Positions 19,543-56,013 of a stretch of 64,000 nucleotides of DNA are shown here, one piece after another. The translations under genes and the position numbers were made by a program. Source of the stretch: Roseiflexus sp. (GTDB taxonomy: Bacteria > Chloroflexota > Chloroflexia > Chloroflexales > Roseiflexaceae); the NCBI GenBank assembly GCA_017743475.1, contig JAGHYV010000006.1, positions 1 to 64,000 on the forward strand, written 5' to 3'. The notes beneath the pieces were generated by a model. That model made no database searches. It worked only from the letters and a program-made list of their open reading frames with translations, and was not told the DNA's origin. Every line of letters starts with the position of its first letter. Position 1 is the first letter of the stretch.

Positions 19543-19728
19543 CCGACGTGCGTTCCAACGTGCGTAGAGAAAACGTCGTCAAGGATACTGCTCCTCTGCG
19601 CGGCACAAAGATGTCACAGTGTTTCTGGAAGCCAATCCCGTAGCAGGGATGCCCGGAATCTTCTATAATGGCTTTCCCGATTGAGGACCCGCAGGTTGAT
19701 GCGTTGTGTTGACAGAAAGGGACCATTG

Positions 19729-20814
19729 ATGAATCGCCACGACATCCGTTTGCTCCAGGCGGTGCGACTCTATCCTTCGGTGACGATCACGTTGCCGACC
19801 CATCGCACATCACCCGACAACAAGCAGGACCCGATTCGCGTGCGGAATCTGGTGACCGAGGCGACCAATCGGTTGCTCGGTGAGTTTTCCAGGCGCGATG
19901 TCGAGCCGCTGCTTGCTCGTTTGGAGGCGCTGGTCAACGATATCGATTATCGCTACACCCTCGATGGTCTAGCGCTGTTCGTCAACCGCGATATTGGCCG
20001 TCGGTTCATTCTGCCGTTTACGCTGCCGGAGCGTGTTGTGGTGGATGAAACGTTCTGGACGCGCAGCCTGGTGTTTGCACTCAATCGCACGCCACGCTAC
20101 TGGGTGCTGGCGCTCAGTGAACAACCGACGCGCCTGTTTGAGGGGGTGCGTGAGCATCTGCAGGAGATCACCGGGGAAGGTTTCCCGATGACACATACCG
20201 GTCCAGGCGGAGAGCGCGGATTGCCGAATGACCCTGCAATTAATCGTTCGGCGTACCGTGATGAGCGACACCGCCAGTTTTTCCGCCAGGTCAGCGCGGC
20301 ACTGACGCCCTTCATTACGGATGACCCGTTGCCGCTGGCGCTGGTCGGCGTTGATCGATATATTGCCTTCTTCCGTGAAGTGTCGCCGCATGCTGGCGCT
20401 GTGATAACGACACTGACCGGCAGCCATGATAAGACGCCGGCGCACGAACTCGGGAAACTGGTGTGGCCCCTGGTCGAGCAGAACCTGTCTGTCCGCCGCG
20501 CTGGGGCGCTGAAGGAACTCGAAGCAGCGGTCGGTGCGCAGAGGTATGCCTCGACCATTGGCGAGGTCTGGCGGTTTGCCCACGAAGGGCGCGTAAGCGT
20601 GCTCCTCGTCGAAGAGAACTATTATCAACCGGCGCGGATTGCCGCTGATGGCGTCGCATTGACACCGGTAGATGACCCGACGTTGCCGGACGTAGTGGAT
20701 GATGCAGTAGACGAGATCATCTCGATAGTGCTGGAGAAGGGTGGGCGCATGGTTTTCGTGGATGATGGCGCGTTGCCTCAACACCAGCGTATTGCAGTGG
20801 TGCTCCGATACTGA
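19729..20814 (+). CDS. baeRF-family protein (bacterial eRF1-like)
   Basis: 361 residues. The pattern fits the bacterial archaeo-eukaryotic release factor family: an N-terminal segment SVTITLPTHRTSPDNKQDPIRVRNLV, strands LDGLALFVNRD and RYWVLALSEQPTRLFEG, then the C-terminal eRF1 domain-3-like part RVSVLLVEENYYQPARI and DDAVDEIISIVLEKGGRMVFVDD. These proteins are thought to act at the ribosome in rescue or stress, but no member's reaction is settled. The canonical GGQ of eRF1 is not visible. The ATG giving MNRHDIRLLQ has AGAAAGGG upstream; TATAAT at 19664 may be its -10. Single gene. The family call is confident; the role is not known. Confidence 0.75.
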   Translation: MNRHDIRLLQAVRLYPSVTITLPTHRTSPDNKQDPIRVRNLVTEATNRLLGEFSRRDVEPLLARLEALVNDIDYRYTLDGLALFVNRDIGRRFILPFTLPERVVVDETFWTRSLVFALNRTPRYWVLALSEQPTRLFEGVREHLQEITGEGFPMTHTGPGGERGLPNDPAINRSAYRDERHRQFFRQVSAALTPFITDDPLPLALVGVDRYIAFFREVSPHAGAVITTLTGSHDKTPAHELGKLVWPLVEQNLSVRRAGALKELEAAVGAQRYASTIGEVWRFAHEGRVSVLLVEENYYQPARIAADGVALTPVDDPTLPDVVDDAVDEIISIVLEKGGRMVFVDDGALPQHQRIAVVLRY

Positions 20815-54941: not shown

Positions 54942-55017
54942 GCCATAGACTGCTGCCCGAACCGATGCCGCACCTGTTGAAAGATTAGGAACGTAAGTAA
55001 GAGTTCACGTTTCTCCT

Positions 55018-55074
55018 GGGAGCGAGGGCATCTTACCTTCGTCAATGCGGCGAGGGAGGGACGCCCTCGTTGCC
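55018..55074. repeat. 57-nt dispersed inverted-repeat element, copy 1
   Basis: GGAGCGAGGGC (55019-55029) and a matching arm GCCCTCGTTGC at the other end (two mismatches). Same length and arm sequence as 62853-62909. Both lie about 75 nt after the stop of a plus-strand gene, here the SDR. Confidence 0.75.
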
Positions 55075-55153
55075 CAGGCGCGTGTGTTAACGATGCGAAT
55101 AGTTATGAAAGTGAAACGGTTGGCATAGGTTAGCGACTCTTAACGCATTGCAC

Positions 55154-55182
55154 TTGCACGACTCCTATTCGCGTAGTACAAT
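55154..55182 (+). promoter_or_regulatory. hpf: Promoter of the hpf leader
   Basis: TTGCAC, 17-nt spacer, TACAAT. The predicted start point near 55189 leaves about 243 nt of untranslated leader before hpf. Confidence 0.55.
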
Positions 55183-55188
55183 GAAACA

Positions 55189-55353
55189 ACAGTCGTGAGT
55201 CTATCGCCTCTACTGAATATTCGTAGCCTGGAAAGGACGACAAACGTGATCCACGCCGTTTGTGGCCCGCACGGTTACGGAGACATATATATTGTTGTTG
55301 TTCGTTGATGACAGACAAAGCCCTCAGCCGCCTGATCGGTGGTTGGGGGCTTT
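55189..55353 (+). promoter_or_regulatory. Structured hpf leader with terminator-like hairpin (candidate attenuator)
   Basis: A stem ACAAACG...CGTTTGT is seen near 55240-55265. Then AAAGCCCTCAGCCGCC-TGATC-GGTGGTTGGGGGCTTT (55317-55353) pairs over 16 bp if G-U pairs are allowed, followed by a T-rich segment. The hairpin lies 79 nt before the hpf start codon, inside the transcript. It could stop transcription unless an alternative structure forms. Confidence 0.5.
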
Positions 55354-55431
55354 CTGCATCCTTTAGGGCATTGTTGCCGCTTTATCGTCGTCTGCCCGTC
55401 ATTGACGTGGGCAGTGAGGCAGGAGGCCGTT

Positions 55432-56013
55432 ATGGATCTGATCGTGAAAAGCCGCAATGGCAAGATCTCGGAGCGTCAGCGTCAACACATTGAGCAAAAA
55501 CTCTCACGTCTCGACCGGTATCTCGACCGGATTGCTCAGGTGACGGTCGAGCACATGGAAGAAACGCGGCGCGACGAGGGAAATGTCCATCGCGTGCAGG
55601 TGACGGTTGTCGGTGATCACGGCGTTCTGGTGCGTGCCGAGCGACGAGCGCCGGAACTCTATGCCGCGATCGATGAGGTGTATGATACGCTCCAGCGTCA
55701 GATCGAGCGCTACAAGGATAAACACTGGCGGCGAGGAAAACTACGCCGTCAGGGTGGGCAGATAGTCGAGGCGCTGCCCGAATTGGCTGCTTCCTCGCTC
55801 GACGATACCCAGGAAGAGGAGAATCGACCTCGCATCGTCCGCACGAAGGAGTTCCAGGTTAAACCGATGTACAGTGACGAAGCAGTAGAGCAGATGGAAC
55901 TGCTGGGACACAACTTCTTCATTTTCCAGGATGCGGAAACCGGAAAACTGAATGTGCTTTACCGCCGCCAGGACGGCAATTACGGTCTGATCGTGCCGGA
56001 AGTCAGTGGTTAA
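55432..56013 (+). CDS. hpf: Long-form ribosome hibernation promoting factor
   Basis: 193 residues, long type. The N-terminal RaiA/HPF domain (1 to about 100) starts MDLIVKSRNGKISERQRQHIEQKLSRL and ends in a basic helix QIERYKDKHWRRGK. An acidic linker follows, then the C-terminal dimerisation domain (RTKEFQVKPMYSDEAVEQMELLGHNFFIFQDAETGKLNVLYRR). It stabilises idle ribosomes as 100S dimers. AGGAGG lies six nt before the ATG. A long leader with a terminator-like hairpin precedes it. A strong terminator follows the gene. Confidence 0.95.
   Translation: MDLIVKSRNGKISERQRQHIEQKLSRLDRYLDRIAQVTVEHMEETRRDEGNVHRVQVTVVGDHGVLVRAERRAPELYAAIDEVYDTLQRQIERYKDKHWRRGKLRRQGGQIVEALPELAASSLDDTQEEENRPRIVRTKEFQVKPMYSDEAVEQMELLGHNFFIFQDAETGKLNVLYRRQDGNYGLIVPEVSG

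Follow-up and report, generated by a model that had tools for sequence, protein, structure and literature searches.

The window (the whole 64-kb stretch of DNA that was analysed, from a Roseiflexus genome, G000) contains hpf, a gene for a long-form hibernation promoting factor whose product carries both the S30AE domain and the C-terminal domain characteristic of long HPF. In the leader of this gene, a promoter is followed by a short upstream open reading frame (uORF), a terminator-type hairpin and a further small hairpin (Table 1). We located hpf in 72 of 82 Chloroflexales genomes and compared 70 leaders in the correct orientation, and 20 further hpf leaders were drawn from the rest of the class; taxon labels other than Roseiflexus and Ca. 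Viridilinea were inferred. Most Chloroflexales genera exhibited a layout consisting of a CTTGCA-N17-GTAGTACAAT promoter, a Shine-Dalgarno sequence (SD) and start codon, an ORF of 12-22 codons, a terminator-type hairpin and, after approximately 40-140 nt, hpf. None of the leaders taken from outside the order showed a promoter-uORF-hairpin layout. A tRNA-Arg(CCU) gene lies directly upstream of hpf in many genomes from these other families (L084-L098, L101).

Table 1. Positions of the hpf gene and of the elements of its leader in the window.
Feature	Position	Strand	Basis
Promoter TTGCAC-N17-TACAAT (GTAGTACAAT type)	55154-55182	+	Sequence; consensus kept in 20 genus representatives
Promoter box TTGCAC (-35)	55154-55159	+	Sequence
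Promoter box TACAAT, after a 17-nt spacer	55177-55182	+	Sequence
Predicted transcription start	~55189	+	
P2, imperfect hairpin with uORF SD and start codon	55220-55281	+	Consensus fold of 7 leaders; also seen in other genera
P2 outer arms	55220-55230/55270-55281	+	
P2 inner arms	55241-55246/55257-55262	+	
uORF Shine-Dalgarno GGAAAGGA	55230-55237	+	Duplex with anti-SD of -5.6 kcal/mol; purine-rich stretch at this position in almost every genus
uORF, 20 codons, VIHAVCGPHGYGDIYIVVVR; GTG start at 55246, stop TGA at 55306-55308	55246-55308	+	Relatives retain the frame and the place of the stop but not the peptide
Second in-frame TGA	55309-55311	+	
Terminator-type hairpin, 16 bp, loop TGATC	55317-55353	+	Fold; pairs swapped across genera; U tract weak in window
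Small hairpin CTGCCC...GGGCAG before hpf SD	55392-55414	+	Surrounding terminator-to-SD region structured in genera
hpf Shine-Dalgarno AGGAGG	55421-55426	+	Sequence
hpf, long-form hibernation promoting factor, 193 aa	55432-56013	+	PF02482 and PF16321, both above gathering score

The promoter had been recognized in a preliminary description of this DNA and is present as stated there; it is, moreover, conserved across Chloroflexales. A generic sigma-70 scan misses it because its -35 box, TTGCAC, shares just 3 of 6 positions with TTGACA. The best promoter lay upstream of the hairpin in all 58 of the 58 leaders scored, and in none of them (0/58) was a rival to it found between the hairpin and hpf. 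In g33 and most g8 leaders, which have neither hairpin nor uORF, the same promoter type stands 83-94 nt from hpf, about as far as the hairpin usually does, which would fit loss of the uORF-hairpin module in one piece. Because module-less genera attach this promoter near hpf and no rival promoter follows the hairpin, the upstream promoter can be tied to hpf. The pattern TTGC-N15-17-TAGTACAAT occurs just twice in the window's own genome; the other exact site (L103; G000:C56 near 232486, minus strand) lies ~80 nt before an apparent bL25/Ctc ribosomal protein gene, identified by eye, which is another ribosome gene.

The terminator-type hairpin, AAAGCCCTCAGCCGCC-TGATC-GGTGGTTGGGGGCTTT, is G+C-rich, has a predicted stability of -28.4 kcal/mol and exceeds in length every other uninterrupted hairpin (loop 3-8) of the 64-kb window; shuffled sequence yielded 0.1 hairpins of at least 16 bp per window. 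Its presence and its length of 16 bp had been described correctly, except that the distance from its end to the hpf ATG is 78 nt rather than 79. Because the stem is followed in the window by UUU only and then by CUGCAUCCUUU, a strict terminator scan gives it no score; several relatives, however, have U5 or longer at this place (T5 to T8 in g16, g14 and the sister Roseiflexus). The stem is built from different pairs in each genus with pairing kept, i.e., it covaries across genera. We treat the hairpin as a putative terminator at which polymerases would stop in vivo, possibly a leaky one in the Roseiflexus strain of the window.

The preliminary description overlooked the uORF (55246-55308), its Shine-Dalgarno sequence and the structured region around its start. 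The gap between the uORF stop and the hairpin is 8 nt, and a second TGA follows the stop in frame. We scanned for uORFs of 10-25 codons that start with ATG or GTG, form an SD duplex at least as stable as -5 kcal/mol and stop 0-12 nt short of the hairpin; such uORFs occurred in 11.9 of 25 genus-equivalents versus 0.76 +/- 0.85 in dinucleotide shuffles. With the conserved start taken as given, frame 0 stopped within the 0-12 nt zone in 14.9 of 20 genera, compared to 2.5 +/- 1.5 in shuffles and to 3.6 and 4.1 for the other frames, although some start codons in this test were chosen by eye, which biases it towards frame 0. Differences in uORF length were multiples of three (60, 63 and 66 nt in Roseiflexus; 42 and 45 nt in g16), and in two leaders in which the uORF stop was lost (L003 and L055) the next in-frame stop substitutes for it. 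No peptide conservation was detected among the uORFs of relatives, codon positions 1 and 2 being as variable as position 3, and there was no clear enrichment of synonymous changes in the uORF. Because indels come in units of three and back-up stops exist, yet the codon positions vary alike, the frame and the stop position of the uORF look to be under selection while the peptide does not. Val-Cys codons recur in Roseiflexaceae-like leaders; this recurrence is explained by RNA pairing, as those codons make up the 3' arm of P2, the stem that encloses the start codon.

Departures from the common layout were found in several genera. The ATG frame passes the hairpin in 3 of 5 g12 leaders, in one of the two from g22, and in g24, g28 and g31; two of those three g12 leaders and g24 also have a GTG start, preceded by a weak SD, whose frame stops before the hairpin. 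Herpetosiphon-like (f3) leaders have an ORF that ends within the 3' arm of the terminator. A hairpin is present with no clear ORF in g25 and g26, most f2 leaders have no kept ORF, and g3, g8 and g33 have neither element.

The predicted leader, in a fold that includes the terminator, was more stable than its shuffles (z -3.3), and the leader stems noted previously are conserved. P2 contains a 28-nt block that is invariant among the seven leaders from Roseiflexus and its sister genus, while the only letters common to the P2 region across genera are the Shine-Dalgarno sequence and the start codon. Compared with body-shuffles, P2 was more stable in most f1 genera and in g12, though not in all (mean z -0.92); as folded, it would be able to hide the uORF start. 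The region between the terminator and the hpf SD likewise folded better than shuffles across genera (mean z -1.72). An extra stable hairpin lies between the transcription start and the uORF in L011, L013, L015, L044 (g17), L058-L060 (g21), L045 (g23), L048 (g24), L046 (g27) and L043 (g28); the window is without one.

No upstream segment was found to pair with the terminator arm, as an antiterminator would, above the level of shuffles (mean z +0.24 over genera), and in Roseiflexus the complementarity to this arm was weaker than in shuffles. Because there is no antiterminator, yet the stop codon is held within the ribosome footprint of the hairpin, we favor occlusion of the hairpin by the ribosome itself and lean, from comparison of the leaders, towards reading the hpf leader as a pyrBI-like transcription attenuator operated by translation of the short uORF. 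The architecture is well supported, whereas the mechanism and its polarity are what we infer from it with the aid of published E. coli data. An attenuator sensing nutrient or translation state had been proposed for this leader; an attenuator of translation state is the part of that proposal best supported, and in place of a structured-RNA sensor the evidence favors a short uORF ending just before the terminator.

According to this model, transcription would begin near 55189 and, if the uORF were free of ribosomes, the hairpin at 55317-55353 would form and part of the polymerases would stop before hpf. A ribosome translating the uORF would reach the stop 8 nt before the hairpin, where its footprint (~10 nt past the A site) would cover the stem base; with the base covered, the hairpin could not close and polymerase would continue into hpf. 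The peptide would be irrelevant, since what would count is the arrival of a ribosome at the stop close enough behind RNA polymerase. A polymerase pause is assumed, so that a terminator near the start of an ORF can be repressed, because in E. coli a terminator less than 100 bp into a coding region shows little repression when polymerase does not pause (PMC4824070). The weak U tract of the window and the leaders that depart from the common layout likewise count against the model. The signal sensed would be ribosome availability and coupling, with hpf transcription reading the ease of ribosome starts on the uORF and their closeness to the polymerase. As a natural corollary, hibernation would take ribosomes away and lower hpf transcription, a feedback exerted by HPF. 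During starvation, slowing of polymerase could improve coupling and raise hpf, while fewer initiations would lower it, and the sequence cannot decide the sign. Only tentatively do we suggest that the uORF may serve as a sequence-indifferent meter of initiation-competent ribosomes, which would open hpf transcription until HPF, by removing them, closed it. Little is understood of how bacteria adjust the hibernation-factor level to the number of their idle ribosomes, and the hpf leader represents a compact candidate circuit, conserved over most of the order, that would take the ribosome itself as its signal.

Published systems provide parallels for the individual parts of this model. In E. coli, termination at tR2 fell from ~90% to <10% when a stop codon stood 5 bp before this terminator, an effect that depended on translation (Li et al., PMC4824070), whereas amino-acid attenuators keep >20 bp between stop and terminator and so avoid this distance effect (PMC4824070). 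The hpf leader resembles those constructs in having a stop a few nucleotides before the hairpin and differs from them in being a natural leader with a conserved short uORF rather than an artificial reporter placed behind a long gene; if the model is true, it would be a natural, multi-genus case of the stop-to-terminator distance effect measured there (PMC4824070). In the pyrL leader of E. coli pyrBI, the ribosome directly blocks terminator folding (PMC5021804), and by analogy a ribosome on the hpf leader ORF would stop an intrinsic terminator from folding with no antiterminator required (PMC5021804, PMC4824070). The hpf leaders share with the pyrBI type both a leader ORF that reaches the terminator (in most genera its stop precedes the hairpin by 0-12 nt, in f3 it lies within it) and the lack of a competing antiterminator. 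pyrL differs from the hpf uORF in extending across the terminator and in sensing UTP via polymerase pausing; the hpf uORF, of 12-22 codons, comes to its stop shortly before the hairpin, only the f3 ORFs end inside the hairpin, and the target here is hpf. The principle is known, and the novelty, as far as we found, lies in hpf as the target, in the phylum, in an ORF that is short and sequence-indifferent, and in the retained distance from stop to terminator; a search of the open literature returned no account of hpf leader attenuation and none of hibernation in Chloroflexus.

Among the alternatives, the one that fares best retains an attenuator and reverses its polarity: translation of the uORF would permit the terminator, and slow or absent translation would allow an alternative structure (P2 or another) to relieve it, such that hpf would be induced by poor translation. 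Such a response would be biologically attractive for a hibernation factor, and P2 could serve it by concealing the uORF start. The whiB7/wblC uORF attenuator and the S. meliloti DUF1127 leader (PMC12218461) act in this sense, as do attenuators of the trp or ilvB type, and the hpf uORF may be analogous to the former two in reading the general translation state to control transcription of a stress gene. Those leaders, however, respond positively to poor translation via alternative structures or Rho, neither of which was seen in the hpf leader. We consider this polarity unlikely, given that no upstream pairing to the terminator arm exceeds shuffles, that there are neither regulatory codons nor a conserved peptide, and that the stop falls within the ribosome footprint of the hairpin, where amino-acid attenuators keep more than 20 bp.

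A second alternative takes promoter, uORF and hairpin to be an independent short transcript, either a small RNA or the product of a micro-protein gene, that ends at an ordinary terminator, hpf being expressed by constitutive read-through; the three elements do form a self-contained unit, and the U tract is leaky in the window. This is decidedly unlikely, as the peptide is unconserved and hpf would be without a second promoter, the unit stays with hpf across the order and has no other copy detectable by covariance model in its own genome, and the genera without it put the same promoter type straight before hpf. We give somewhat less credence still to hairpins that merely stabilize or process the mRNA, with the uORF incidental or translationally coupled to hpf. 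Several hairpins do occur along the leader, including the excess of structure between the terminator hairpin and hpf, but the uORF stop is fixed in position relative to the hairpin, relatives carry canonical U tracts, and the end of the uORF, ~120 nt before hpf, is too distant for reinitiation coupling.

It is very improbable that the leader is a ligand-binding riboswitch or a protein-binding structured RNA such as the raiA motif, to which the preliminary description had pointed. The invariant P2 block within Roseiflexus and the sister genus could be taken to suggest one, but across genera no ligand-pocket-like core is conserved, there is no antiterminator, and the leader gave no Rfam match even at E<=5. 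The raiA model (RF03072) found no match in related loci and 40 related genomes, and no control genome matched either. Like the raiA motif and the raiA-hairpin, which often neighbor genes of this protein family, the hpf leader is an RNA beside such a gene; those RNAs, however, were described from Bacillota, Actinomycetota and Streptomyces, and the hpf leader differs from them in architecture and yields no covariance-model match. Two classical leader types were rejected: an amino-acid attenuator (trp/his/ilv type), because the uORF peptides vary from genus to genus, share no run of codons and are accompanied by no exclusive antiterminator, and an arrest-peptide leader (tnaC/erm type), because it needs a conserved peptide and codon positions 1 and 2 vary like position 3.

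A covariance model of the Roseiflexus-type leader identified one site in its own genome, the one in the window, and beyond the training set it recovered the g6 hpf leader (E=3e-4); three more matches (E ~0.002-0.01) lay away from hpf and look like chance. A strong fold upstream of the promoter (54942-55188) contains a dispersed repeat and was rejected as part of the leader; a ~90-bp intergenic inverted repeat at 55000-55090, also upstream of this promoter, belongs to a set of ~40 dispersed genome copies with 74-83% identity. The single background candidate for a similar leader in the same genome, before position 19699 of the window, is the terminator of the preceding gene. The gene at 19699-20814 (+ strand) encodes a bacterial archaeo-eukaryotic release factor family 3 protein (PF18845), which is also translation-related.
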